A stretch of 64,000 bases of DNA, taken from positions 956,763-1,020,762 of the forward strand of contig NZ_UIGI01000001.1 in the NCBI RefSeq assembly GCF_900446255.1, read 5' to 3'. Under the pieces are notes generated by a model. That model was not told the origin of the DNA. It did no database searches and was given only the letters and a program-made list of their open reading frames with translations. The stretch's first letter is position 1. Each line of letters opens with the position of its first letter. Source of the DNA: Buttiauxella agrestis. GTDB lineage: Bacteria > Pseudomonadota > Gammaproteobacteria > Enterobacterales > Enterobacteriaceae. Of this stretch, positions 2,593 to 32,122 are shown one piece after another. Made by a program: the position numbers and the translations under genes.

Positions 2593-3685
2593 AGTTATTT
2601 TGTACTGCCGACAAGGCTTTGAGAAAGAGTGCGCGGCAGAGATTACCGATAAAGCGGGCCAGCGCGGCGTGTTTGGTTTTGCACGCGTGAAAGAAAACAG
2701 CGGTTACGTGATTTACGAATGCTATCAGCAAGATGACGCTGACAAACTGGCGCGTGAATTGCCGTTTCGTGATCTGATCTTTGCTCGCCAGATGATCGTT
2801 GCGGGTGAACTGCTAAAAGATCTTCCACCGGAAGATCGTATTACACCCATTACCGGAATGTTGACGGGCGTGGTTGAGAAGGGCGGCGATCTGCGTGTTG
2901 AAGTTGCTGACACCAATGAAAGCAAAGAGCTGATGAAGTTTTGCCGTAAGCTGACGGTACCGCTGCGTGCCAGCCTGCGCGAAGCCGGGATCCTCACCAA
3001 TTACGAAACGCCAAAACGCCCGGTGGTGCATGTGTTCTTTATCGCACCTGGCTGCTGCTACACCGGTTATTCCTACACCACGAATAACTCGCCTTTCTAT
3101 ATGGGCATCCAGCGACTGAAATTGCCTGCTGAAGCGCCAAGCCGTTCAACCCTGAAACTGGAAGAAGCATTCCATACTTTCATTCCGGCGGATGAGTGGG
3201 ATGAGCGTCTGGCGAACGGAATGCATGCCGTTGACCTTGGAGCCTGCCCAGGCGGTTGGACTTACCAGTTAACGCAACGCAACATGTGGGTTTGCTCCGT
3301 TGATAACGGCCCAATGGCACAGAGCCTGATGGACACCGGGCAAGTGACCTGGTTGCAGGAAGATGGTTTTAAATATAAGCCAACCCGCAACAACATCTCC
3401 TGGATGGTCTGCGACATGGTTGAGAAACCAGCGAAAGTGGCGAGTCTGATGGCTACGTGGTTAGTGAACGGCTGGTGCCGCGAAACCATTTTCAACCTCA
3501 AGTTGCCAATGAAGAAGCGCTATGAAGAAGTGTCACAAAACCTGGCATTGATTCATGAAAAACTGGCAGAGCATGGTATCAGCGCGGAAATTCAGGCGCG
3601 CCAGTTGTACCACGACCGTGAAGAAGTGACTGTGCACGTGCGCCGTATGTGGGCCGCAGTGGGCGGTCGTCGCGACGAGCGATAA
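2585..3685 (+). CDS. rlmM: 23S rRNA 2'-O-ribose C2498 methyltransferase RlmM
   Basis: 366 residues, matching the E. coli enzyme. An N-terminal THUMP-like region is followed by a Rossmann-type methyltransferase domain with the SAM motif [14 protein letters not shown] at about residues 216-229. Further conserved blocks are VCDMVEKP and [13 protein letters not shown], which carry the catalytic Asp and Lys of the 2'-O-methyltransferase tetrad. It methylates the ribose of C2498 in the peptidyl-transferase centre of 23S rRNA using SAM. Starts inside the end of ygdD. Confidence 0.96.
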
Positions 3686-16960: not shown

Positions 16961-18640
16961 GTGCGCGCTTTTTTTGCTCCGTCTGTTGCGGTGTTCATTT
17001 TTTTGTTCTTGCCAGCAGCCGCTCTGTCTGCGGTATTACCTAAAGATCAGGAGCTAATTCTTCAGCAAGAAAGGCAGCGCGCACGTGAGGCAGCATTAGC
17101 GACTCCAACACCAGAGGTTCGACTTTCAGCCCCCTCGGTTTCATTTAGCCGTATTCAGTTCCCTGAAGAAACGCCTTGTTTTCCCATCAATAGCGTGGAA
17201 TTGCAAAACCGTGATGAATTTCCCCATTGGCTGCCCTTGCAGAAAATAGCCAATCAGGCGATCGGGCACTGTATTGGTTCCACGGGAATTAATCTTATTA
17301 TGACCGCAGTGCAAAACCGTCTGATTGATAGCGGATATATCACTGCGCGAGTTGTTGCGCCGCAACAGGATTTAAAAAGTGGGAATCTACAATTAGCCAT
17401 TATTGCGGGGAAATTACGCCATGTATTGCTGACTGCACAAAGTGGGCAATACGTCACGCTTTATAGCGCATTCCCGGCTCACGAAGGTAACCTCCTGGAT
17501 TTGCGCGATATCGAACAAGGGCTTGAAAATTTACAGCGAGTCCCGACCGTGCAGGCCAGCATGGAAATTTTGCCAGGGGAAAACCCAGGCGAAAGCGATA
17601 TTGCCCTGAGCTGGCAGCAAAGCAAAATGTGGCGTGTTGGGTTGTCGCTTGATGACTCAGGTTCGCGCAGTACCGGGCGATATCAAGGTGGGGCAACGGT
17701 TTACGGTGACAATCTGCTTAGCCTGAGCGACACACTTTATCTTTCCGCAGGGACTTCCCTGTTTGCACCAGATGGCAAAGGCACTCACAACTATACCGGC
17801 CAATATTCTCTGCCTTTTGGTTACTGGGCAACCAGCTTTACTGCCAGTAACAACAGCTACCATCAGACCGTTGCAGGCTTGAATGGTGATTATCGTTACA
17901 GCGGCGAAAGCAATAATCTCGACTGGCAACTTAGCCGCGTGTTGCACCGCAATGCCAGCCAGAAAACCTCGTTCACTTACGACGTCATTGCCCGCGATTC
18001 AAAAAACTATGTTGATGGCACTGAAGTTGATGTTCAACGCCGCCAGACGGCCGCCTGGAAAATCGGTCTCCAGCATCGCCATTACATCGCCGCTGCTACG
18101 CTCGATGCGGGTATCAGCTACCAGCGTGGAACGCGTTGGTTTGGCGCAATTCCTGCCTCGGAAGAGTATTTCGATGAAGCCACCGCGTTGAGCAAAATTC
18201 TGCAAATCAACGCCCAGCTTGATGCGCCATTCACTCTTGCCACACAGAACTTCCGCTACAACGTGCAGTACCTGCGCCAGATAAGCGACACCCGCCTGAC
18301 GCCGCAGGATCAATTCTCCATCGGTGGGCGCTGGACGGTACGTGGGTTTGACGGCGAGCGCACGTTGAGCGCCGATCGCGGCTGGACCGTGCGCAACGAT
18401 CTCTCCTGGCAAACACCGATTCCAAACCATCAACTCTATCTCGGCGTGGATTACGGCGAAATCGGTGGTCACGGTAGCGACTACAACCTGGGTAAACATC
18501 TGGCGGGTGGTGCGCTGGGCATGCGCGGCGGTTTACTCGGGGCGAGCTACGACATGTTCGCAGGTATTCCCCTTTCTAAACCAAGCGGCTTTACCACCGA
18601 CCCGGTGACAGTGGGCTTCAACCTGAACTGGCAGTACTGA
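16961..18640 (+). CDS. cdiB: Two-partner secretion transporter CdiB
   Basis: 559 residues from a GTG start with AGGATG upstream. A signal peptide spans about residues 1-23 (hydrophobic [20 protein letters not shown]). It is followed by an N-terminal helix ([19 protein letters not shown]), two POTRA domains (about 70-220; NSVELQNRD..., [11 protein letters not shown]...) and an outer-membrane beta-barrel ending in the aromatic FNLNWQY. The Omp85/TpsB loop-6 signature [12 protein letters not shown] is present. CdiB exports the CdiA effector from periplasm to cell surface. First gene of the operon; nine bases separate it from the acyltransferase gene. Confidence 0.93.
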
Positions 18641-18649
18641 GGAAGATCG

Positions 18650-19195
18650 ATGCGAATAAATAGTTTCGATGTCATTGCGCCTGGCGTGCTGGGTGGCGAG
18701 GCCAGTTCGGCGGAAATTCTGGGTGCGGCGGTATGGCTGTGGATGCACTCCGAGTTTCATCGCGATCTCGCGCTGGAAACCCTGCCTACTGTTTTGCTGC
18801 CCATCATCGAAAAGCAGCAGTACATGCTGGTGAGTGAAAAGGGTAAGCCGGTGTTTTTCCTCAGTTGGATGTGGATGGACGAAGAAGGCGAGCGTCGTTA
18901 TCTGGAAGCGCCTGGCATCATGACGCAAGAACGCGACTGGTTTAGCGGCCCGCGACTGTGGCTGCGCGACTGGGTGGCACCCTTTGGTCACACCCAGGCG
19001 ATGAAAAACCTGGTGACTGAGTATTTGTTCCCGGAAAACTGCATGCGTGCGCTTTATCACCGTGGTGTTACCCGGGGTAAATGCGTCAAAAATTTTCGCG
19101 GCGATAAAGTCAGCCAGCAACAGGCATACGACTGGCGTGCCGCTCACCCACTTTCAGCTCCCGTTAAAGAACTCACTGCAAGGATGCAACCATGA
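18650..19195 (+). CDS. cdiC: HlyC/CyaC-family toxin-activating lysine acyltransferase (CdiC)
   Basis: 181 residues. The RTX-toxin acyltransferase fold is clear: AAVWLWMHSEFHRDL (catalytic His at about residue 37), FLSWMWMDEEGERRYL, and LRDWVAPFGHT, whose Asp is the second catalytic residue. HlyC-type enzymes move a fatty acyl group from acyl carrier protein to lysines of a toxin. Here the gene lies between cdiB and cdiA and overlaps cdiA by four bases (ATGA), so CdiA is the likely substrate. cdiBCAI loci with such a gene are known but form a minority. No RTX toxin is present in the window. Confidence 0.87.
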   Translation: MRINSFDVIAPGVLGGEASSAEILGAAVWLWMHSEFHRDLALETLPTVLLPIIEKQQYMLVSEKGKPVFFLSWMWMDEEGERRYLEAPGIMTQERDWFSGPRLWLRDWVAPFGHTQAMKNLVTEYLFPENCMRALYHRGVTRGKCVKNFRGDKVSQQQAYDWRAAHPLSAPVKELTARMQP

Positions 19196-22100
19196 ACAAG
19201 AACCTTTATCGCATCGTCTTTAACAAAGCGCGTGGCATGTTGATGGTGGTGGCAGATATCGCGAAATCCGGCCGAGCTTCGTCATCGCCTTCTTCTGGTG
19301 TTGGACACACGCTTTCTCAGCGCATAAGCAAAATTTCTTTGCTTAATTTCAGTCTGTTACTGGCGCTGGGGTGTGTCAGTTTTACCAGCCAGGCGGGTAT
19401 TGTTGCTGACGGAAGTGCTGCTGGTAATCAGCAACCGACGATTATAAACAGCGCCAATGGTACGCCGCAGGTCAATATTCAGACGCCAAATAATCAGGGC
19501 GTTTCTCACAATAAATACAGCCAGTTCGATGTGGATTCAAAAGGCGTCATCCTTAATAACTCACACAACGCGACGCAGACCCAGCTTGGCGGCATGGTGA
19601 ATGGCAATCCGTGGCTGGCGAAAAGCGAAGCCAAAATCATCCTTAACGAGGTGAATTCCCGCAACCCGAGTCAGCTTAACGGCGTGCTTGAAGTCGCCGG
19701 TAAAAAGGCGCAAATCGTTATTGCCAACCCGGCGGGCATCACCTGCGACGGCTGCGGCTTTATCAATGCTAATCGCACCACGCTCACCACCGGTACGCCG
19801 CAATTTAATAACGGGCAAATTAGCGGATACGACGTCAACCAGGGCGAGATCGTGATTCAGGGGCGCGGCATGGATAGTACCGGTCAGGACAGCACCGATA
19901 TTATCGCCCGCGCTGTGAAAGTGAACGCCGGGGTCTGGGCTAACGAGCTGAATGTCACCGCTGGTCGCAATTTGATTGATGCGGCGCACCAGAGCATCAA
20001 TTCCAAAGTCACTGATGGAAGCGCACGCCCGAAACTGGCGGTGGACGTGGCACAACTCGGTGGCATGTACGCCGGTAAAATTCGCCTTATCGGCACCGAA
20101 ACGGGTGTCGGCGTCCGTAACGCAGGCACGATAGGGGCTTCGGCGGGCAGCGTGATAATGACTGCTGATGGGCGTATCGAAAACAGCGGAACCATTAATA
20201 GTGCTCAGGACTTAACGATAAGCTCATCAGGCGGTATTCAGAACAGCGGAACTCAGTACGCCTCGGGCAACACTCGCCTGACGACACAAGCCGATGTCAC
20301 CAACAGCGGCACTCTGGCGGCGGCGGGTGAAACGACACTCATCGCAGGCAGCCTCAATAGCACCAACACAGGTGTTTTAGCCGCAGGCTTGAACAGCGAC
20401 GGCAAGCTCGGTAGCTCTGGCAACCTGACGTTAAGCACCTCCGGCACCCTCAGCGCTCATGGTCAGAACCTTGCTGCCAGCAACCTTAATGCGCAAGGCA
20501 GCTCCGTCGATTTAAGCCAAAGCCAGACCTGGGGCAGCCAAATCATGGCGACGGCGACAACCGGCAATCTCAGCACTGCGCAGGGGAATATCGCGGCCGC
20601 GCAAACACTCACGCTGAATACTAACGGCATGCTGACCAACGACGGCGGTAAGCTGGAAGCCGATCGTTTACTGCTCGGCGGCAGTTCGTTGTCGAACCAG
20701 AATGGGGTTATCAATCAGCTTGGCGAGCAGGATTTGACGCTGGGGCAAAGCGACGCCATTAACAATACCTCCGGCACCATTGCCAGCAACGGCACGAACC
20801 TCACGTTGAACACCGCGAAACTCACTAACAATGAAGGGGTGATCATTCATGCGGGAAGCGGAAAGCTCACGCTCAACGCGGCTGATTTAGAGGCGACTTC
20901 AGGCACGCTTGCCACCAATGGTGCATTGTCGCTAACCGGTAAAAAAGTGGTGCTCGATAGCGCGACGACTCAGGCCGATAACATCACGCTGACTGCGGAC
21001 ACCCTTTCGCATCGCTCAGGAAATATGGCGCAAACCGGCAGCGGCAATATGGTGGTGACGGTAGCGAGTGGGCTTGATAACACGGGCGGTAGCATCGCAT
21101 CAAACGGTGATTTCGCGCTCAAAACCGGTAGTCTCATTAATCAACAAGGGCAACTGCTTTCCGCAGGCCACGCGCTGACATTAACTAGCGCGGGCGCAGT
21201 CGATAACCATAGCGGGTTTATTGCCGCAGACGGTGCGCTGGAATTAAACAGTAGCCAGCTCAACAACAATAGCGGATTAATTCAGAGCGGCAGCCTGCTT
21301 ACATTGGACACCCATGGTGGCGAGCTTCTCAACCAGAATAGCGGTGAGCAGGGCGGTATTGTCAGTATGGGCGATTTGTCGTTAAAAAGCGGCAACGTCG
21401 ATAACCAGCAAGGGACCGTTTACAGCGCAGGCCTGGCAACACTCAACACGGGAAACTGGAACAATACAGCCGGGCAACTGGTGGGTATCAGCTCACTGAA
21501 TTTCAGCGGTAACCAACTGCTAAATGACCACGGCGGCTTGATTCAAAGCGGCGGGAAAATAACCCTCGACACCCATGGTGCGGCGCTGAGCAACACGCAA
21601 AGCGGCGATGCCGGAGGCATCATCAGCCAGGGTGATTTGCACATCAACGCGGGTGATGTCAGCAACCAGACTGGCACCGTCTACAGCGCCGGTAACCTCC
21701 TGGTTAACTCGGGGAGCTGGAATAACACGGCCGGGCAACTGGCAGGCGTTGGTTCGCTGAGTTATAGCGGTGCGGCGTTGCTCAATGATAGCGGCGGCAC
21801 TATTCAGAGCGGCTCAGAGATGCTGCTCGACACGCACGGTGCAGCATTCAGCAACACTCAAAACGGCATTATTTCCGCCCAGGGTGATTTGCGCATCAAT
21901 TCAGGTGATGTGAATAACCAGTCAGGCTCGGTTTATAGCGCAGGCAATGCCGTGCTCTCTACTGGAAGCTGGAACAACACATCCGGGCTTCTGGCGGGCG
22001 TCGGCTCGCTGAGTTTTAGCGGCAATGCGCTGCTAAACGATAACAGCGGTGCCGTGCAAAGCGGTGGCGATCTGGCTGTGGATACCCACGGTGCCGTCCT

Positions 22101-25100
22101 CAGTAACACTAACAGCGGCGACACGGGCGGCATCACCAGCCAGGGCAATATGCAGCTTCGCGTCGGCAATCTGGACAACGCTCTTGGTGCGATTATCAGC
22201 AACCAACATCTGGCATTGAATGCAGACGATGTGAATAACGAATCGGGATTGTTGGTTACGTTAAACGGGATTGAAGCATCAACCCGCAAGCTCAACAACC
22301 ACAACGGAGCCATCCAGTCGGGTGCCGGATTCAACTGGAATACTCACGGTAACACGCTTGATAACTCCCATGGACTAATCAGCGCGCAGTACGTTTTCAC
22401 TCTGCTTGCAGGGGATGTGAATAACCAGCAAGGGCTACTGACATCGGGTGGCGACTTCACTCTGGCAGCAGGCCAACTGGATAACCGCAACGGGCAGATT
22501 GCCGGGAAAAATGATCTGGCGCTGACCACTACCGGCATTGAAAACCAGCACGGTGCGATTCAGGCGCTGGGTGATATGGCACTTAATGCGGCCCATGCGG
22601 TTATCGACAACACCGAAGGGCTAATCCAGAGCGCACAACAGGTGCTGATGAACGCCGCGCAGGTAGTGAACCAGAACACCCACAGCAGCGACCAATCGCT
22701 GGGTATTCAGGGCGGGAATATCACCGTCAATGCCGACACTCTCAATAACCAATACGGCGACATGTTGGCGAACGAGGATTTGACTCTGAACCTCGCGGGA
22801 GATTTGGATAACAGCCATGGCCTGATGACGGCGATGGAGCAGGCACAAATCCGCGCCGCAGCCGTTCTCAACACCCTGGGGGATATCGAAGCGGGTCAGG
22901 GAATGGGTGTCATCAGTCACAGCCTGACGGGCGATGGCAAATTGCTCTCGCTGGGCGATATGTCGCTGAATCTTGACAGCGATTTCACCAACACCGCCAC
23001 GATTCAGGCCAATGGTAATCTGGATTTCACCACCACCGGCAACGTCATCAACCAGAACTTAATGCAGGCGGGGGACACCTTCACGCTGAATGCCGCATCG
23101 CTTAATAACACCGCTGACGGGGAAATGAGCGCGGGTACGCTGGATTTACGCGTCGCAGGTACGCTCAACAACCGCGGCTTGCTGGACGGTTACGACACTC
23201 ACCTGAGCGCTCAGACACTTTATAACACTGGCACTGGGCGCATCTACGGCGACTGGCTGGCGATTGATGCTCGCACGCTTAACAACAGAGCTGAAAATGG
23301 CACCGCCGCCACGATTGCGGCGCGTCAGCAACTGGATCTGGGCGTCGGAACGTTGAACAACAGCGACCATGCGTTGATATACAGCGACGGGGATTTATTC
23401 CTTGGCGGAAGTCTTAACAGCGACTGGCTTGCAACAGGCATGGCGGGCGTGGTGAACAACCACAGCGCGACTATTGAATCCGCGGGCAACATGACCCTCA
23501 ACGTTGCCACGCTCAACAACATCAATGACCATTTTACGACTGAAAATGTTGTGGTTTCACAAGAGCATATCTCCGAGTATCTGGTTGATTATCTTGGCGG
23601 CCAGACCTTCAACGATAACGACTACAACATCAGCATGTACAAGGATGAGACCTGGATCATCTGTATTGAAGGGGTGTTTTGTGGCGATAGTTCTCATGGC
23701 GATAAATTCACCCATTTAGACTACACCCGCACCATCACCGAAGACCGGGTTCTGGAAAGCGATCCCGGGCAGATTATTGCGGGCGGTAATCTGACTATTA
23801 ACGCCAGTGACGTTCTTAACGATAAGAGTCAGATAGTCGCGGGTGGTGGACTGAGCATTAACGCCGCTAACCTCAATAATGTGGAAGTCAGCGGTGAGCA
23901 TAAAATCATCGACGAAGGCACGGCCACACGCTACACGCGCAAACAGCACAAGGGGGGCGACTCACCAAGAGTCAGCACTTCCGATTATGTGCCACCGGCG
24001 ATCATCCAGGAAATTAGCCTTAATGCCAGCACCGTTGCTGACCACAGCCAGATCGCAGGCAGCGGCCTGACGGTTGACGGCCATCAGGATACCTCGGTTA
24101 TCGCCAGCATACAGGGCGCTGGGAATCTCGGCATCACCGACATTGCCGGGCCTGATGGCGCAGGCTTTATCTCCACCGGCCCGGTGGGCGGGGTGACTAT
24201 TCCTTCCGCAGGAAACCTATCTCCAGGAAAAACCTTTGAAGTCGCCCAGACAGGCAGCAATGAAGTTATCCGCATCGTCGGGCCAAACACCCGAATTCCG
24301 GATAACAGCCTGTTTAAATCGCACCCTGAGAGCAACAGCCCGTATCTTGTTGAAACAGACCCGCGCTTCACGAATCAGAAGCAATGGCTGGGCTCTGATT
24401 ACATGATGAAGGCGTTTATCACCGATCCGAACAATATCCAAAAGCGACTGGGCGACGGTTTCTATGAGCAACGGCTGATACGTGAACAGGTCGTGGCGCT
24501 GACCGGCCAGCGCTATCTGGGCGGCACCTCAAGCGACGAAGAGCAGTACAAAATGCTGATGGATAACGGCATCGCCTTCGGCCAGAAATGGGGCCTGAAA
24601 CCAGGCGTGGCGCTAACGCCAGAGCAAATGAGCGCCCTGACCACCGATATCGTCTGGATGGTGACGCAGACTGTCAAAATGCCAGACGGCAGCACGCAAC
24701 AGGTGCTGGTGCCGCAGGTGTACGCGAAGGTGAAACCGGGCGATCTGGACGGCAGCGGCGCGCTGCTTGCAGGTAAAAACGTCAACCTGAATCTGAGCGG
24801 CGATTTGACCAATAGCGGGCGTATCAGCGCGAAAGACAGCACGCAGATACTGGCGAACAACATCAATAACCTCGGCGGCATCATCAGCGGTAATGATGTG
24901 GCACTCCAGGCGCGAACCGATATCAACAACGTCGGTGGCACCGTCAAAGGTGGCGATAGCCTGCTGGCGATTGCGGGTCGCGATATCAACGTCACCACGA
25001 CCACCCGCAGCGCCACCAGTGCGAATGGCGACTTTGGCCGCACCAGCATTGACCGTGTCGGCAGCATTTCCGTCAGCAATGACGGCGGCTTCCTGGGCAT

Positions 25101-28100
25101 GCAGGCCGGGCGCGATATCAATCTGACTGGCGCACAGGTGACGAACAGCGGCAGCGATAGCCAGACCACGATAGTGGCGGGCAATAATCTGAATCTGAAC
25201 ACCGTCACTGCGGGCAGCCACGACAACCTGAGCTGGGGTAAAAACGACACTCTGAGCCGTTCGCAAAGTGCGGAAATGGGCACTTCGATTCAGGGAGCAG
25301 GCAATGTGGCGATGGGTGCGGGTCACGACGTGAATATCACGGCGGGCAACATTTCAGCGGACCAGCAACTGACCGTGCAGGCCGGCAACGATCTGAATAT
25401 CGTCAACGGAACGGCTAGCGATAGCTTCGACCAGTACACGAAGCAGACGGGCAGCAGCAGTATGGCGTCTAAAAAAACCACCGTGGACCGCAACAGCTAC
25501 AGCAACCAGACGGCAGTGGGCAGCCAGCTTGACGGCGACAGCGTGACGCTTTCTGCCGGACACGACATGCTGATTCAGGGCAGCAACGTGGCGGGCTCGC
25601 AGGACGTAAACCTGATTGCCGGTAACAATCTGACTGTGACGGCGGCGACAGAACAGCACGACGAACTGCATCTGCATCAGGAGAAAAAATCGGGCTTAAG
25701 TGGCACCGGTGGCATCGGCATCAGCTATGGCACGAATGATCTGAAAACGACCGACACCAGCACCAGCCTGACCAGCGCAGGCAGCACCGTGGGCAGTATC
25801 AACGGCAACGTGAACATGGTGGCGGGCAACGGGCTGACCATCAAAGGTTCGGATGTGGTGGCGGGTAACAACATTGCGCTGCAGGGTAAGCAGGTCGATA
25901 TCCTGGCGGCAGATAACGACAGCAGTACAAAACACACCGTCGAGCAAAGCAGCAGCGGCCTGACCCTGGCGCTGTCTGGCGCGGTGGGGAGTGCCATAAA
26001 CCAGGCAGTGACCAGCGCGAACACGGCGAATAAAGAAAGCGACAGCAACGGACGTATGGCTGCACTCGACGGTATGAAAGCGGCGCTCTCCGGTGCGCAG
26101 GCGTATCAGGCCAGCGAACTGGCGCAGGCGAACGGCACGGAAGGCAGCATGATTGGCGTCAACCTCTCTTACGGCAGCCAGTCGTCGAAATCCGAACAGA
26201 CGCAGACTAACCACGACAGCCAGGGCAGCACCATTCAGGCGGGCAACAACCTGAGCATTAACGCCACCGGCACGGACATTAACGTGCAGGGCAGCCAGAT
26301 AAAAGCGGGCAATGACATTACCCTCGATGCGGCACGTGATGTGAACCTGGTGTCTGCGGAAAACACTCATCAGCTTGACGGCAAAAACGAAAGCCACGGC
26401 GGCTCGGTAGGCGTGGGGATTAACTTTGGCAGCGGTGCCAACGGTATCTCGGTGAACGCCAGCGTCAACAAAGGCAAAGGGAGCGAAACCGGCAACGGCA
26501 CCACGCACACTGAAACCACGGTTGATGCGGGCAACCATCTGACCATCAACAGCGGGCGCGACACGACGCTGACCGGTGCGCAGGTGAGCGGTGATAAAGT
26601 CACGCTGGACGTGGGCCGTAACCTGACGCTTTCCAGCGAACAGGACTCTGACAAATACGACTCGAAGCAACAAAATGCCAGCGCGGGCGGCAGCGTCAGC
26701 ATGGCCGGCGGCAGTGGCTCGGTGAACGTCAGCAAAGACAAAATGCACAGCGATTACAACGCGGTGCAGGAGCAGACCGGCATCTTCGCGGGCAGCGACG
26801 GGTTCGACATCACCGTGGGCGAGCACACCCAGCTTAACGGCGCGGTCATCAGCAGCACCGCCAGTGAAGACAAAAACCGCCTCGACACCGGCACGCTGGG
26901 CTTCAGCAATATCGACAACCACGCCGAGTTTAACGTGGAGCACCAGAGCGCGGGTATCAGCAGTAGCGGCAGTATCGGAGGCCAGTTCCTCGGCAATATG
27001 GCGAATGGCCTGCTGGTGGGGGCGAACAGCGAAGGCAGCGCAGACTCCACGACGCATGCGGCTATCTCCGGTGGCACGATTGTTATCCGCGACCAGGATA
27101 AACAGACGCAGAATGTGGACGACCTGAGCCGCGATGTGGCCAACGCCAATCCGGGGCTGGACGTTATCTTCGATAAAGAGAAAGAGCAGCGGCGTTTGCA
27201 GGAAATCCAGGCGATAGGGGAGATAGGCAGCCAGGTAGCCGATGTGGTGCGGACGCAGGGGCAGATAGAAGCCACCAAAGCGGCTAACGAAAAGATGAAG
27301 AACGTTAGCGACACTGAACGTGCCGCTGCGAAAGAAGACTGGATGAAAGCGAATCCAGGTAAAACCCCGGAAGATAAAGACATCAATAATCAGGTTTACC
27401 AGAACGCTTACAACGATGCGTTCAGTAAATCGGGTTACGGCACGGGCGGCTCCATACAGCAGGGAGTCCAGGCTGCTACCGCCGCTATTCAGGGACTGGC
27501 GGGGGGCGATATGGCGAAAGCGCTGGCAGGAGGTGCTGCGCCATATATTGCTGAACTGGTGAAAAACAGCACATCAGACGATGCTTCACGCGTTATCGCT
27601 CATGCTGTGGTGAATGCCGCACTGGCGGAGATTCAGGGGAAAAATGCCGCGGCGGGAGCGGCAGGAGCCGCAACGGCTGAGCTGGCGGGGATAATCGCCA
27701 CCAGTGTGTATGGCAAAGATGTCAGCCAGTTGAGCGAGTCTGAAAAACAGGCCGTCTCAGCGCTGGCGACGGTTGCCTCAGGCCTGGCGGGGGGGCTTGC
27801 CGGAGACAGTTCGGCAGATGCGATGGCGGGGGCGATTGCCGGGAAGACGACGGTTGAGAATAACTATCTGAGTGTGTCGGAGAAGACAGAGCTTGAGATA
27901 GCGAAGCAGAAACTTAACAGCAACGACCCGGCAGAACGTGAAAAAGCGCAGCAAACTATCAATGCGTTGCGTGAGAAGGATATTGCCAGCGACCAGAAAG
28001 TGATCGAGTCCTGTGGCAATGGTGCGGCAGCAAGCGCAGCCTGTGGCGCGGCAAGACTGGAAGTTATTGCTGCTAAAGAGGAATATGAAACCGGGCCGTA

Positions 28101-28797
28101 TAACTCAAAAATAAGCCAGCAATATGCGGATGCTTACGGCCAGATCGTGAACCTGCTGGATGTCACTAGCGTTGATGCGCAGAACCAACAGCAAGTGAAA
28201 GATGCTATGGTGAATTATGCAATGGCGCAACTTGGGGTTGACAAAGCCACTGCTACGGCGTACATCGAAACCTACGATGGGATGAAGATCGTTGCAGCGT
28301 CAGTAACACCTATTTTGGGAACCGCAGCAGCAAATAAACTAAGTTCTTTGACTAATAAAATTGTTTCGGCTGAAGCATCTCAATCAGCACAAATAATAAA
28401 GTCTTATGGGCCGCATGAATCTGGTCCGTTGGGAAACCCAAATGATCAACGTGCGCCAGCTTCGACATTCAGAAGTGGTTCATATACTGAGAAAGTTGCA
28501 GAAACAGATATTTATCTATACCGGGATTATGGTGGTTCAGCAAAAGTTGATGGTCGTTATTGGACACCAGAACCATCCAAAGGACCATTACAATCTCAGC
28601 TAGATAGCGCGGTTCTCCCTGAGTGGGGAAACACGTTCCAAAATCAAGCCGTTATAAAAATACCTAAAGGTACGACGTACTACGAAGGTGCAGCAGCAGC
28701 CCAAACGGGTACTCAAGGGACAAATCCAACACTACATGGCGGTGGTACTCAAATATTTTTACCTACTCCGCAAAATGACTGGATCATAAAAAAATGA
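19192..28797 (+). CDS. cdiA: Contact-dependent inhibition effector CdiA (TpsA haemagglutinin family) with TNT-like C-terminal toxin domain
   Basis: 3201 residues. In order: extended signal peptide (ESPR, MNKNLYRIVFNKARGMLMVV, cleavage near residue 69); TPS secretion domain, about 70-330 (NPAGITCDGCGFINANRTTL); FHA-1 beta-helix repeats, about 330-1440; a non-repetitive block, about 1440-1620, with CIEGVFC, in the place of the receptor-binding region; a YP-type segment, about 1700-1850 (SLFKSHPESNSPYLVETDPR); FHA-2 repeats, about 1860-2560; pretoxin region ending in VENN at 2888-2891; and a 310-residue C-terminal tip. The last 95 residues (LYRDYGG at 3110-3116, GRYWTPE, IPKGTTYYEG, HGGGTQIFLP with Gln3187) resemble the tuberculosis necrotizing toxin (NAD glycohydrolase) fold. 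Toxin assignment is by motif only. Confidence 0.9.
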   Translation: MNKNLYRIVFNKARGMLMVVADIAKSGRASSSPSSGVGHTLSQRISKISLLNFSLLLALGCVSFTSQAGIVADGSAAGNQQPTIINSANGTPQVNIQTPNNQGVSHNKYSQFDVDSKGVILNNSHNATQTQLGGMVNGNPWLAKSEAKIILNEVNSRNPSQLNGVLEVAGKKAQIVIANPAGITCDGCGFINANRTTLTTGTPQFNNGQISGYDVNQGEIVIQGRGMDSTGQDSTDIIARAVKVNAGVWANELNVTAGRNLIDAAHQSINSKVTDGSARPKLAVDVAQLGGMYAGKIRLIGTETGVGVRNAGTIGASAGSVIMTADGRIENSGTINSAQDLTISSSGGIQNSGTQYASGNTRLTTQADVTNSGTLAAAGETTLIAGSLNSTNTGVLAAGLNSDGKLGSSGNLTLSTSGTLSAHGQNLAASNLNAQGSSVDLSQSQTWGSQIMATATTGNLSTAQGNIAAAQTLTLNTNGMLTNDGGKLEADRLLLGGSSLSNQNGVINQLGEQDLTLGQSDAINNTSGTIASNGTNLTLNTAKLTNNEGVIIHAGSGKLTLNAADLEATSGTLATNGALSLTGKKVVLDSATTQADNITLTADTLSHRSGNMAQTGSGNMVVTVASGLDNTGGSIASNGDFALKTGSLINQQGQLLSAGHALTLTSAGAVDNHSGFIAADGALELNSSQLNNNSGLIQSGSLLTLDTHGGELLNQNSGEQGGIVSMGDLSLKSGNVDNQQGTVYSAGLATLNTGNWNNTAGQLVGISSLNFSGNQLLNDHGGLIQSGGKITLDTHGAALSNTQSGDAGGIISQGDLHINAGDVSNQTGTVYSAGNLLVNSGSWNNTAGQLAGVGSLSYSGAALLNDSGGTIQSGSEMLLDTHGAAFSNTQNGIISAQGDLRINSGDVNNQSGSVYSAGNAVLSTGSWNNTSGLLAGVGSLSFSGNALLNDNSGAVQSGGDLAVDTHGAVLSNTNSGDTGGITSQGNMQLRVGNLDNALGAIISNQHLALNADDVNNESGLLVTLNGIEASTRKLNNHNGAIQSGAGFNWNTHGNTLDNSHGLISAQYVFTLLAGDVNNQQGLLTSGGDFTLAAGQLDNRNGQIAGKNDLALTTTGIENQHGAIQALGDMALNAAHAVIDNTEGLIQSAQQVLMNAAQVVNQNTHSSDQSLGIQGGNITVNADTLNNQYGDMLANEDLTLNLAGDLDNSHGLMTAMEQAQIRAAAVLNTLGDIEAGQGMGVISHSLTGDGKLLSLGDMSLNLDSDFTNTATIQANGNLDFTTTGNVINQNLMQAGDTFTLNAASLNNTADGEMSAGTLDLRVAGTLNNRGLLDGYDTHLSAQTLYNTGTGRIYGDWLAIDARTLNNRAENGTAATIAARQQLDLGVGTLNNSDHALIYSDGDLFLGGSLNSDWLATGMAGVVNNHSATIESAGNMTLNVATLNNINDHFTTENVVVSQEHISEYLVDYLGGQTFNDNDYNISMYKDETWIICIEGVFCGDSSHGDKFTHLDYTRTITEDRVLESDPGQIIAGGNLTINASDVLNDKSQIVAGGGLSINAANLNNVEVSGEHKIIDEGTATRYTRKQHKGGDSPRVSTSDYVPPAIIQEISLNASTVADHSQIAGSGLTVDGHQDTSVIASIQGAGNLGITDIAGPDGAGFISTGPVGGVTIPSAGNLSPGKTFEVAQTGSNEVIRIVGPNTRIPDNSLFKSHPESNSPYLVETDPRFTNQKQWLGSDYMMKAFITDPNNIQKRLGDGFYEQRLIREQVVALTGQRYLGGTSSDEEQYKMLMDNGIAFGQKWGLKPGVALTPEQMSALTTDIVWMVTQTVKMPDGSTQQVLVPQVYAKVKPGDLDGSGALLAGKNVNLNLSGDLTNSGRISAKDSTQILANNINNLGGIISGNDVALQARTDINNVGGTVKGGDSLLAIAGRDINVTTTTRSATSANGDFGRTSIDRVGSISVSNDGGFLGMQAGRDINLTGAQVTNSGSDSQTTIVAGNNLNLNTVTAGSHDNLSWGKNDTLSRSQSAEMGTSIQGAGNVAMGAGHDVNITAGNISADQQLTVQAGNDLNIVNGTASDSFDQYTKQTGSSSMASKKTTVDRNSYSNQTAVGSQLDGDSVTLSAGHDMLIQGSNVAGSQDVNLIAGNNLTVTAATEQHDELHLHQEKKSGLSGTGGIGISYGTNDLKTTDTSTSLTSAGSTVGSINGNVNMVAGNGLTIKGSDVVAGNNIALQGKQVDILAADNDSSTKHTVEQSSSGLTLALSGAVGSAINQAVTSANTANKESDSNGRMAALDGMKAALSGAQAYQASELAQANGTEGSMIGVNLSYGSQSSKSEQTQTNHDSQGSTIQAGNNLSINATGTDINVQGSQIKAGNDITLDAARDVNLVSAENTHQLDGKNESHGGSVGVGINFGSGANGISVNASVNKGKGSETGNGTTHTETTVDAGNHLTINSGRDTTLTGAQVSGDKVTLDVGRNLTLSSEQDSDKYDSKQQNASAGGSVSMAGGSGSVNVSKDKMHSDYNAVQEQTGIFAGSDGFDITVGEHTQLNGAVISSTASEDKNRLDTGTLGFSNIDNHAEFNVEHQSAGISSSGSIGGQFLGNMANGLLVGANSEGSADSTTHAAISGGTIVIRDQDKQTQNVDDLSRDVANANPGLDVIFDKEKEQRRLQEIQAIGEIGSQVADVVRTQGQIEATKAANEKMKNVSDTERAAAKEDWMKANPGKTPEDKDINNQVYQNAYNDAFSKSGYGTGGSIQQGVQAATAAIQGLAGGDMAKALAGGAAPYIAELVKNSTSDDASRVIAHAVVNAALAEIQGKNAAAGAAGAATAELAGIIATSVYGKDVSQLSESEKQAVSALATVASGLAGGLAGDSSADAMAGAIAGKTTVENNYLSVSEKTELEIAKQKLNSNDPAEREKAQQTINALREKDIASDQKVIESCGNGAAASAACGAARLEVIAAKEEYETGPYNSKISQQYADAYGQIVNLLDVTSVDAQNQQQVKDAMVNYAMAQLGVDKATATAYIETYDGMKIVAASVTPILGTAAANKLSSLTNKIVSAEASQSAQIIKSYGPHESGPLGNPNDQRAPASTFRSGSYTEKVAETDIYLYRDYGGSAKVDGRYWTPEPSKGPLQSQLDSAVLPEWGNTFQNQAVIKIPKGTTYYEGAAAAQTGTQGTNPTLHGGGTQIFLPTPQNDWIIKK
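21280..22569 (+). repeat. Tandem ~255-261-bp repeats inside cdiA (FHA-1 region)
   Basis: Five consecutive units begin at 21280, 21541, 21802, 22054 and 22312 (spacings 261, 261, 252, 258). Each starts with I/V-Q-S-G. The first four carry DTHG and NxxSG-type turns, and the first three share VYSAG and GxWNNT. The first three units are the most alike, which suggests recent unequal crossing-over. The encoded units form successive turns of the beta-helical stalk. Confidence 0.85.
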
Positions 28798-29099
28798 AGT
28801 CGTATGAAATAGTTGAACAATGGGTAAGTAAGAGAAGTTCATTTTACTTCTTTCTGCCAGATGGTCCCTATGGAAGACCTTTTGATAATCAGTATTTGGT
28901 TGAAAGAATAGAAGAAACTTCAGATGGTTTTAAAATATTCCTTTCGGATAACCTGATGCTTCACTTTATTGGAAACACAAAGATCGAGGATGAGGGATGC
29001 AATCTGTTAATTAAAAAATTTAATCAATGCATCTTTAAAAATAATGGGGATGACACAAATAAATATGATCATGGTGAAGTGGTTTTAAGTGGCTTCTAA
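28794..29099 (+). CDS. cdiI: Predicted CdiI immunity protein
   Basis: 101 residues, acidic and soluble, overlapping the cdiA stop by four bases (ATGA). The gene is markedly AT-rich like the toxin-tip coding region and unlike the body of cdiA. The segment FLPDGPYGRPFDNQYLVERI looks like the entry loop found in several polymorphic-toxin immunity proteins. The role is inferred from position: in every cdi locus the gene directly after cdiA protects kin cells by binding the toxin tip. No signal peptide, as expected for a cytoplasmic target. It ends before a strong terminator. Confidence 0.85.
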   Translation: MKSYEIVEQWVSKRSSFYFFLPDGPYGRPFDNQYLVERIEETSDGFKIFLSDNLMLHFIGNTKIEDEGCNLLIKKFNQCIFKNNGDDTNKYDHGEVVLSGF

Positions 29100-29105
29100 A
29101 TGATG

Positions 29106-29135
29106 AATCCCAACCCTTGCGGTTGGGATTTTTTT
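29106..29135 (+). terminator. Terminator of the cdiBCAI operon
   Basis: Ten-base arms AATCCCAACC / GGTTGGGATT followed by TTTTTT, seven bases after the cdiI stop codon. Confidence 0.93.
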
Positions 29136-29399: not shown

Positions 29400-29735
29400 T
29401 GACTTCGCAACGGATAAAGTTGTTGTTGAGAATAACTATCTGAGTGTGTCTGAAAAGACAGAGCTTGAGGTGGCGAAGCTTGAACTCAACAGCAAAGACC
29501 CAGCAGAACGTGAAAAAGCGCAGCAAACTATCAATGATCTGCGTGAGAAGGATATTGCCGGCGACCAGAAAGTCATTGATGCGTGTGGTAACGGAAATGC
29601 CGGAAGTGCAGCGTGTGCGGCTGAAACGGGTGGGCATTTTCGTTGCGTGTACCGAATTTTGATGCTGGTGCACCCAAGTTATAGCCGTGCTGCGCTTAGG
29701 AAATAACAATTTCCAAAATACGTTCGATCCGGTAC
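29400..29735 (+). pseudogene. Orphan cdiA C-terminal module, degraded
   Basis: From 29425 the sequence repeats the pretoxin end of cdiA: VENNYLSVSEKTEL, then DPAEREKAQQTIN and LREKDIAGDQKVIDACGNG. It is almost identical to 27853-28040 for about 190 bases. It lacks the upstream cdiA body and a start codon. After about 29615 the copy departs (AAETGGHFRCVYR) and meets a stop at 29706. A neighbouring frame reads NFDAGAPKL, stop, and then a further run ending NNNFQNTFDPVRE, so the tip has decayed by frameshifts. This is a displaced toxin module of the kind that trails many cdi loci. Confidence 0.8.
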
Positions 29736-29811: not shown

Positions 29812-30390
29812 ATGAAACACAAAATTTTAACTGCTGTTATTTTATCTGCATTGGGGACAATATCTGCTGCACATGCAGATACCCAAAGTATCACTGCGGG
29901 ATATGCGCAGGCTAAAGCTCAGGATTTTAAAAATATCAATGGCATGAATTTAAAATATCGCTATGAGTGGGCGTCACCAGTAAGTATCATGACTTCGTTC
30001 TCATTTATGACTGGCTCGGATAATTACGCATATAACGTAGGGCGAGATATTGTTGATAACAGTGCCAATGTGAAATATTACTCTCTGGCTGCTGGTCCAG
30101 CCTGGCGTATTAATGAATTATTCAGTGTTTATGGTCTTCTGGGCGCAAGCTACAGCAAAGTGAAATACAACTATAACTGGAAGAATTACGAAGGTGGCAA
30201 TACTTACGAAGATATGGGGCGCTATAGTGGAAAAAATGATTCCACGTCCCTGGTATATAGTGCAGGTGTTCAGATAAATCCACTGCCTAATTTCGTTATA
30301 GATGTCGCTTATGAAGGTTCTAATCTGGACGATGGCGCGAGCGATCATTCACTGAATGGCTTTAATGTTGGTGTGGGTTATCGGTTCTAA
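29812..30390 (+). CDS. Ail/OmpX/Lom-family outer-membrane beta-barrel protein
   Basis: 192 residues. The signal peptide is residues 1-22 (AVILSALGTISAAHA). The mature part alternates polar and hydrophobic residues as eight short beta strands with aromatic ends, and the C-terminus NGFNVGVGYRF is the family outer-membrane signature. The strand blocks SITAGYAQAKAQ, LKYRYEW and YSLAAGPAWRINELFSVYGL match the Ail/Lom/OmpX family. Members give serum resistance, adhesion or unknown roles. Sequence is AT-rich against the flanking core genes. A broken second copy lies at 31.05-31.3 kb. Confidence 0.85.
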   Translation: MKHKILTAVILSALGTISAAHADTQSITAGYAQAKAQDFKNINGMNLKYRYEWASPVSIMTSFSFMTGSDNYAYNVGRDIVDNSANVKYYSLAAGPAWRINELFSVYGLLGASYSKVKYNYNWKNYEGGNTYEDMGRYSGKNDSTSLVYSAGVQINPLPNFVIDVAYEGSNLDDGASDHSLNGFNVGVGYRF

Positions 30391-30474: not shown

Positions 30475-30999
30475 ATGAAAATAATTTCATTAACTCACGC
30501 ATTACAGCGACCGGGTGCTAGCAATACATTTTTTAAACTCTTATGCCTGCTTTTATTGTCTCTTACACTCTTTGCATGTACAGGTCTCAATTATTTATAT
30601 CCTAAGTTTACAAGTTACACAGGATCTGATTCAGCGATAGTGTATGTTAAAGATGATGGGTTTAATTATTCAATATATATCTTTGTGTTAACCGAAGATA
30701 ATTGTTTCGAAAAGAAAGAAAGAAGGCTGCTGACAAGAAATATGATGATGAAAGGCTCAGGGACTGATATTTATGAATATAAAGTTCAGGCCGGTAAATA
30801 CTATGTCATCGGTTACCAAGAGCCCCGTGCCTTCCACTATCGCACATTCATTCCGGATCTGAATAGTCGTTATAAAATATCGTCTGGCGATATTTCTAAA
30901 CTCCCTTTTGATGGGGGGGAGAAAGAACCAGAGCAAGTTAAAGGCTGGAATATAAAAAACATATGCAAGGATATGTTTGGTTACCGTCATGTAGATTAA
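30475..30999 (+). CDS. Predicted lipoprotein of unknown function
   Basis: 174 residues with a positively charged start and a long hydrophobic segment ending in a lipobox (LLLLSLTLFAC, Cys35). The mature domain (IVYVKDDGFNYSIYIFVLTE, DIYEYKVQAGKYYVIGYQEP) alternates beta strands and reads like a small beta-sandwich with the KVQAGKYYV pattern seen in PEGA-like or carboxypeptidase-regulatory-like domains. I do not recognise a family. It follows the ail-like gene by 84 bases and has the same AT-rich composition. Confidence 0.65.
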   Translation: MKIISLTHALQRPGASNTFFKLLCLLLLSLTLFACTGLNYLYPKFTSYTGSDSAIVYVKDDGFNYSIYIFVLTEDNCFEKKERRLLTRNMMMKGSGTDIYEYKVQAGKYYVIGYQEPRAFHYRTFIPDLNSRYKISSGDISKLPFDGGEKEPEQVKGWNIKNICKDMFGYRHVD

Positions 31000-31305: not shown

Positions 31306-31441
31306 TGCTGATGCTTTGCATCAAAAGACGAAATGCTTTTACTTCAAAGGTAGGTAATAGCATGCTTACCGATAAATAATAACTTTATCTCAAAAAACAG
31401 AATTTATATTGTATTTGTTTGACTTATTAAAAGGATGTTAT

Positions 31442-32122
31442 ATGAAAAAAATAATTATCGTTCTTCTCACCGCTACAATTAATCTTACTGGTTGCAGTAT
31501 GTTTCCTAATGCAGGGCCTCTTGCAGGGAAAGATATTACGGAAGTAAATCAGTCTATTTTAGATGGTGAAACAACCGTTTTAGAATTACGCGCTGTATAT
31601 GGTGATAAGCTAACAGTTGAAAAAACGCCTCAGGGTAAAGCAGTCATGAACTGGTATAAAACCTGGAGTTCCGGAATTACTCAAGACTCAACTGTACTGA
31701 GTGTGTTAACGGATAAGAATATTGTAGTTAAACATGTTGTATTGCGATATAAAACAAAAACTGACTATAGCTTCGTAAGTGAATTGACGGATGCGGAATT
31801 AAAATTATTCATCGAACAGGGTAAAACAACTCGCAAGGAAGTTGAATCAAAATTCGGTTATCCGAACGATAACTCCTTTGATGATAAAGGGAATCAGATT
31901 CTGATGTATGTTTATTTTGATTCCAGTAGAAGTCAATATGGCTGGATACCGAATGTTGGTGGTTTTATAGAAGCATTAGCAGGCACTAAGGATACCAAAG
32001 TGACTCTTTTGTCAGTGTCATTGGATGATCAAGATAAAGTTGTATCTTACCAATTGAAAACGACAAATTATCATCAGGGCATTGGGCTTCTGAATTCATC
32101 ATCTGTAGAAGAAGTAAAATAA
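31442..32122 (+). CDS. Predicted lipoprotein with two BamE/SmpA-like repeats
   Basis: 226 residues from the ATG at 31442, with AAAAGGATG upstream. The signal ends in a lipobox (INLTGC, Cys18). Two segments share one pattern: ILDGETTVLELRAVYG and, later, FIEQGKTTRKEVESKFGYPN. The motif G-x-T-T-x-x-E-(V/L), then FG-x-P and a following aromatic strand (QILMYVYF), is that of the SmpA/OmlA (BamE) fold, so the protein appears to hold two such domains. BamE itself serves barrel assembly; this paralog's role is unknown. AT-rich, last gene of the island on this strand. Confidence 0.65.
   Translation: MKKIIIVLLTATINLTGCSMFPNAGPLAGKDITEVNQSILDGETTVLELRAVYGDKLTVEKTPQGKAVMNWYKTWSSGITQDSTVLSVLTDKNIVVKHVVLRYKTKTDYSFVSELTDAELKLFIEQGKTTRKEVESKFGYPNDNSFDDKGNQILMYVYFDSSRSQYGWIPNVGGFIEALAGTKDTKVTLLSVSLDDQDKVVSYQLKTTNYHQGIGLLNSSSVEEVK

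Follow-up and report, generated by a model that had tools for sequence, protein, structure and literature searches.

A Class IV-like cdiBCAI Locus of Buttiauxella agrestis with a Predicted NADase Tip outside the Pfam TNT Family and a Putative Immunity Protein of No Named Family

What kind of toxin does the contact-dependent growth inhibition (CDI) locus of Buttiauxella agrestis deliver, and how would its small neighbor protein protect against it? The locus lies in a stretch of 64,000 nucleotides (assembly GCF_900446255.1, contig NZ_UIGI01000001.1, positions 956,763 to 1,020,762; hereafter the window), where an initial annotation made from the sequence alone had read a cdiBCAI locus with a toxin tip resembling a nicotinamide adenine dinucleotide (NAD) glycohydrolase (NADase) of the tuberculosis necrotizing toxin (TNT) type. 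The gene order cdiB-cdiC-cdiA-cdiI and the corresponding Pfam domains are all present. This order and an HlyC-type CdiC, with the VENN motif, an entry domain, a variable toxin, and an overlapping putative immunity gene, support the assignment of the locus as a class IV-like cdiBCAI CDI system.

On the basis of the predicted model, the toxic tip is probably an NAD-destroying enzyme of a kind not yet named, and residue conservation suggests that the small protective protein probably plugs its active site. Taken as a whole, a class IV-like cdiBCAI locus, with an NADase tip that forms a subfamily outside the Pfam TNT family and a CdiI that plugs the cleft, is the reading that we consider likely. 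The CdiA tip, delivered to the target cytosol, would hydrolyze NAD(P), the 101-residue CdiI would block the cleft by inserting a G-R-P-x-D-x-Q loop, and the invariant Arg28 of this loop would stand in for the cationic intermediate.

Predicted Fold and Conserved Residues of the CdiA Tip

The toxin domain, a proposed NAD(P) glycohydrolase, occupies positions 28405–28797 of the forward strand (CdiA residues 3072–3201). Its boundary was taken from nine relatives and coincides with the onset of the sequence common to different carriers, at residue 3072 (YGPHE, nucleotide 28405). The tip motifs named in the initial annotation were all located (RDYGG at 3111, GRYWTP at 3121, IPKG at 3157, and GGGTQI at 3183); the tip length of 95 residues was not borne out, the shared cassette being 130 residues long.

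Structure prediction of the tip, which had been proposed as a check, gave a weak model (predicted local distance difference test (pLDDT) score of 60, with the models spread from 46 to 60) and revealed no fold unlike that of TNT. The best solved matches in Foldseek and VIA were Tse6, Tne2, Rhs1-CT, and fungal NADases. NADases fill the first 11 VIA rows, all scoring above the rows for ADP-ribosyltransferases (ARTs), and likewise the high-probability Foldseek rows, with unrelated chains found only at a probability of ≤0.08 among the ranks inspected. 4KT6, a streptococcal NADase that the literature places nearest to Tne5, was not among the VIA rows, an absence that excludes nothing.

An alignment of 13 members of the tip family (A4), reaching down to 23% identity, has Tyr39, Ala69, Trp74, Gly89, Gly95, Gln100, Gly112, Gly113, and Gln116 as invariant residues, with Arg40 in 12 of 13 members and either Tyr or Phe at position 52 in all 13, as is the case for Gln116. 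The proposed NAD-site residues are Arg3111, Tyr3123, and Gln3187, corresponding to cassette positions 40, 52, and 116. Their order in the tip, Arg followed by Tyr or Phe and then GG-x(1,2)-Q, is that of the NADases in a motif comparison. According to PMC10539506, Arg757, Tyr765, and Gln822 of TNT have counterparts in enzymes of Serratia and Aspergillus, with the Gln strictly conserved; Gln387 of Tne2 and Gln413 of Tse6 have been placed with the Gln of TNT (PMC6398120).

Several observations weigh against an NADase assignment. The members of A4 were collected with profiles of the tip family itself, the placement of its most remote rows (L051 and L003) is uncertain, and L055, a further relative, is without the GG pair. 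Glu73 and Glu94 are invariant in the nine close members. Moreover, the profiles A2, A3, A4, and A5 found only chance chains in the PDB and no sequence relation to solved NADases; an Rhs1-complex immunity chain (6xtd_B, E = 1.2, A2) and an iota-carbonic anhydrase (E = 0.001, from two matches scoring 9.8 and 9.9 bits, A4) were both discarded as chance. Searched singly against the PDB, the remote member L051 found only chance chains and L050 nothing.

Alternative Readings of the Tip

An ART that modifies a target protein or RNA, rather than emptying the NAD pool, is a rival reading that gains from the two glutamates that are invariant among close members. The classical triads of such enzymes, H-Y-E and R-S-E, need the acid (PMC13285283), whereas no acidic column reaches ≥90% in the 13-member A4 and Glu occupies position 94 in 9 of 13 members, as against Gln116 in 13 of 13. 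The lack of a well-conserved acid in the wider family makes a transferase less likely, and with all ART rows outscored by the 11 NADase rows we regard this reading as rather unlikely. The fold match itself could be an artefact of a poor model, with the tip having some other activity, e.g. that of a nuclease; the low pLDDT values and the lack of a sequence bridge to solved NADases are in its favor. The top of the Foldseek output and the head of the VIA rows consist of NADases, however, with unrelated chains confined to low probabilities among the ranks inspected, and the conserved residues follow the NADase order, making such an artefact quite unlikely.

A further question is whether the tip is a true, if divergent, member of the TNT family. 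The motif order R..GRY..LP..IP.G..GGGTQ points in that direction, as do the fungal NADases among the fold matches, which are grouped with TNT in PMC10539506. The PF14021 profile, however, misses the window tip and all nine close members, and matches 1 of 13 members of the wider family at E = 0.14. Profile-profile comparison by hhalign with five PF14021 domains (from seven loci found, L036 having been dropped for one stop and L041 for being half a domain) gave P = 0.07, 0.024, and 0.09 in three comparisons. The second beat 198 of 200 column shuffles, its score being reached by two, the third was reached by 8 of 200, and the first had no shuffle control; given these shuffles, the link was rejected as proof. 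Arg and Gln co-align with the TNT domains in one profile comparison, the aromatic counterpart being matched by motif order only. Tse6, Tne2, and Rhs1-CT also match the model as well as the fungal enzymes do, within 1 Z. Divergent TNT membership is therefore unlikely, and of the TNT-type NADase first proposed, the NADase-like fold stands, in a weak model, while membership of the Pfam TNT family is not supported. Assignment to Tne5, an ART-fold NADase family described in 2026 with homologues reported in CDI systems (PMC13285283), appears very unlikely: membership would call for a sequence relation to the Rhs of Pluralibacter gergoviae and for the Lys-Glu pocket around which Tne5 is described there, whereas the tip family as a whole has no conserved acidic residue, an argument that is weak as Tne5 was compared by description only.

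The preferred reading, an NADase tip outside the Pfam TNT family, places the window tip beside several known systems. Its predicted core fold is common to Tse6 (Tne1), Tne2, and Rhs1-CT of Serratia Db10 (Tne3), which also have the invariant Gln and the aromatic residue (PMC10539506) and are encoded beside a dedicated immunity gene, as here. No solved chain has a detectable sequence relation to the tip, however. A further difference is delivery, for which the window tip family has CdiA or Rhs carriers, and CdiI, searched up to E = 10, matches none of the solved immunity chains of these toxins. The TNT family (PF14021: TNT, Serratia Rhs1-CT 1036, and the fungal NADases) shares the motif order, with possible counterparts of Arg757, Tyr765, and Gln822, and the fungal folds, but its profile misses the tip. 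Among the CDI toxins tabulated for E. coli, class 15 (strain FCH1; PMC11630599) already has an NADase tip on CdiA; this class is assigned by PF14021 (TNT, NAD glycohydrolase), which does not detect the window tip. The CD38-like ARC toxins (PMC12605009) are NAD-depleting polymorphic toxins that have also been reported as fusions to CDI carriers, but they are of a different fold class (ADP-ribosyl cyclase) and none was found among the fold-match rows inspected. No description of the window tip or its immunity family was found in the titles and abstract starts of the open-license PMC papers that the literature searches listed. If the NADase assignment is true, NAD depletion by CDI would extend beyond the TNT class known for E. 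coli, and the locus would define a toxin-immunity pair without a name in Pfam or NCBIfam.

The Putative Immunity Protein and Other Partner Genes

The small gene overlapping cdiA at an ATGA, as first annotated, is cdiI (28794–29099, forward strand), which encodes a putative immunity protein of 101 residues. In line with the earlier claim that it belongs to no named family, no Pfam family exceeded the cut-off (YcxB in two of nine members, best E = 0.021), NCBIfam gave one chance match (E = 0.032), and the PDB no match, with the CdiI-family profile finding chance chains at E ≥1. The high-confidence CdiI model (pLDDT 93.3) combines a helix at the N terminus with several β-strands and has no significant match among solved structures.

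Nine positions, including the start Met, are invariant across nine CdiI rows, and five of these (Gly27, Arg28, Pro29, Asp31, and Gln33) lie within seven residues, a clustering with a permutation P of 0.002 that ignores kinship (seven of the nine are close). When the window CdiI is compared with its two Limnobacter relatives, residues 25–35 agree at 7 and 6 of 11 positions, whereas elsewhere only 13 and 10 of 88 agree. Divergence nearly everywhere except in a single basic loop suggests that this loop touches a surface that does not vary, namely the active site. Tsi6, Tni2, and RhsI1, which are unrelated immunity proteins, each put a Lys, Arg, or His into the NADase site (PMC10539506); with this precedent, and from its conservation, Arg28 is proposed to be the plug residue of CdiI. 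An invariant Arg in a fast-diverging CdiI would offer a handle on the principle that immunity proteins against NADases, though unrelated, arrive alike at a basic residue placed in the active site.

The remote tips have other genes downstream. In a BLAST comparison of 13 proteins at E ≤0.05, these fall into four groups (L029, L031, and L047; L002, L046, L048, and L049; L051; L003) that match neither cdiI nor one another. The partners of L046 and L049 are DUF6966 proteins (PF22294), and no Pfam family was matched by those of L047, L051, and L003. At least five kinds of partner, whose immunity role is suggested by position, thus appear to go with the tip family, in line with the diversity of NADase immunity proteins described in PMC10539506; DUF6966 would then be an immunity family for NADase-like toxins. 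As related tips (23–50% identical) stand beside at least four further unrelated partner groups, new immunity folds would have been recruited repeatedly. Collectively, these data allow a broader proposal, possible rather than probable, in which the tip is a further antibacterial NADase type with its own immunity family, the Arg of the G-R-P-x-D-x-Q loop mimics the cationic intermediate, and the basic plug of Tsi6, Tni2, and RhsI1 has been arrived at independently, alongside this repeated recruitment.

Distribution of the Toxin-Partner Cassette

A genome-contig scan, which reaches close relatives only, matched 57 stretches and gave eight confirmed loci, all of which have both the tip and the neighbor gene, a pairing that recurs more than chance would allow. 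The tips are 94, 87, 87, 85, 85, 81, 65, and 62% identical to that of the window, and in every locus the 3′ end of the toxin gene overlaps a 101-residue gene that can be aligned with cdiI (92 to 16% identity over the alignment). The two most distant partners are still BLAST relatives of cdiI (E = 1e-6 and 2e-5; L027 at E = 6e-8 in a separate comparison). A ninth locus, L001 from Enterobacteriaceae, has a tip 85% and a partner 46% identical.

Carriers were assigned by Pfam domains for five of the eight loci (L021, L023, L025, L026, and L027). Those of Yersinia aleksiciae, Biostraticola, Huaxiibacter, and Y. ruckeri are CdiA proteins that have either VENN itself or a variant form; in Rheinheimera the tip follows a hemagglutinin-repeat protein, in Photorhabdus khanii a 278-residue frame without a Pfam match, and in two Limnobacter relatives it is found on Rhs proteins. 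Recurrence of tip and partner behind CdiA, hemagglutinin-repeat, and Rhs carriers suggests that toxin and partner move together, between species and from one delivery system to another.

In sampled genomes the tip family is rare, being found in 3 of 398 genomes of the phylum (profile A2, E ≤0.01; one of the three a short stretch with a stop) and in 11 of 345 genomes of the order with the broader profile A3 (E ≤0.01). One tip search at E ≤1 gave 21 matches in 20 loci, 12 of which were examined and three kept (L001, L002, and L003); L007 and L011 were examined on the wrong strand alone. From the 13 rows of the order-level search, A4 took the toxins of L046, L047, L048, L049, L051, and L052; L031, from the phylum-level search, was also included, and L034, L050, and L053–L057 were left out. 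The A4 profile nevertheless matches all seven of these omitted rows (E = 7e-23 to 0.002); L050, L053, L054, and L057 retain the final GG..Q, and L034 and L056 are N-terminal pieces. Neither tip nor immunity protein had a match in phage sequences, and one scan of viral contigs gave no confirmed relative of the cassette; among plasmids there was one remote tip match (Sinorhizobium, 41%) and none for the immunity protein.

The immunity profile matched 5 of 246 genomes of the family (E ≤0.001). Three of these matches, L058, L059, and L060, adjoin a toxin of the window-tip family, although none is a clearly new locus (L058 has the coordinates of L022, L059 shares its immunity protein with L025, and L060 belongs to L001). 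The fourth, L061, is 46% identical to CdiI and has no window-type toxin within 12 kb; a CdiA lies 2.4 kb upstream (43% identical over residues 1899–2897), and L061 is probably an orphan immunity gene, judging by its surroundings. L062, with no tblastn match, is probably spurious. At class level, 4 of 369 genomes matched (E ≤0.01), with no clear intact homologue among the four: L043 is a fragment, L045 is unrelated, and L042 has a short GRPYDN stretch with stops. The GRPYDN-bearing frame of L042 (429–584), which is 35% identical to CdiI over 52 residues and is followed by stops, has no related toxin in its locus; it hints at a wider immunity family.

Architecture and Delivery Class of the Locus

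In CDI systems of this kind CdiB exports CdiA, CdiC lipidates the receptor-binding region of CdiA, and the C-terminal region (CdiA-CT), released after VENN, reaches the target cytosol through the entry domain. The first gene, cdiB (16961–18640), starts with GTG and encodes a 559-residue outer-membrane two-partner-secretion (TPS) transporter with a ShlB barrel (PF03865, E = 6e-106) and two POTRA domains (POTRA_2 and POTRA_3). It is followed by cdiC (18650–19195; 181 residues), a HlyC-type lysyl acyltransferase (PF02794, E = 5e-31) with ApxC (4whn, E = 2.5e-23) as its relative among solved chains. These matches agree with the complete TpsB and HlyC-type acyltransferase of the initial annotation, as does the 3201-residue TpsA effector with VENN, which is encoded by cdiA (19192–28797, its start overlapping the end of cdiC by four bases) and has a TIGR01901 TPS domain, 14 TIGR01731 repeat stretches, and a single VENN, at residue 2888. 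All features of the locus are on the forward strand.

The CdiA-CT begins (27853–28404) with VENN and a presumed cytoplasm-entry domain, DUF6862 (PF21726, E = 2.3e-12). This entry module, residues 2888 to about 3057, matches a solved CdiA (6vek_A, E = 1e-72, query residues 1–170) and has Cys residues at 2941 and 2951; conserved disulfide-forming Cys residues are described for CDI entry domains (review PMC9086364).

The gene order and HlyC-type CdiC are common to the E. coli class IV cdiBCAI of STEC_O31, for which an LPS (lipopolysaccharide)-core receptor and lipidation by CdiC of a Lys in the receptor-binding domain are reported (PMC8510554), but STEC_O31, unlike the window locus, has an Ntox25 tip. 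At 60–80% identity, part of a 1.6-kb cdiA query is present in 188 E. coli genomes out of 5,426; the eight E. coli loci among the matches listed have 71.0–71.7% identity over 26–27% of the query. The aligned stretch of ∼430 bases, roughly CdiA residues 1693–1836, is no test of the receptor-binding region and has no bearing on likeness of receptor or lipidation. In E. coli strain D10 a lysine-acyltransferase gene lies upstream of the matching cdiA, in a locus with broken genes. A megablast search of the E. coli collection, sensitive only to roughly ≥85% identity, gave no match for the tip and cdiI (28000–29099).

G+C content is mostly 0.54–0.61 along cdiA and falls to 0.45–0.38 over the tip and cdiI, which fits a swapped cassette. 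Directly after cdiI is a hairpin (29105–29131) resembling an intrinsic terminator, although by count alone it is weak (one found, against a mean of 0.7 in shuffles). Further downstream, 29416–29622 encodes a 69-residue CdiA-CT remnant that spans VENN and the sequence following it (81% identity with CdiA 2885–2953) and whose frame stops soon after, without a toxin domain; judged by its sequence, it is the scar of an earlier tip exchange, a displaced CdiA-CT.

Neighboring Genes

No tRNA genes were found in the 64-kb window. Downstream of the CDI locus, where G+C is lower, 29812–30390 encodes an Ail/Lom-type outer-membrane protein (PF06316, E = 6.5e-33). It is followed by two open reading frames without Pfam families in DNA of ∼33–38% G+C, 30475–30999 (174 residues) and 31409–32122 (237 residues), the latter with a sub-threshold lipoprotein signal as its sole Pfam trace.
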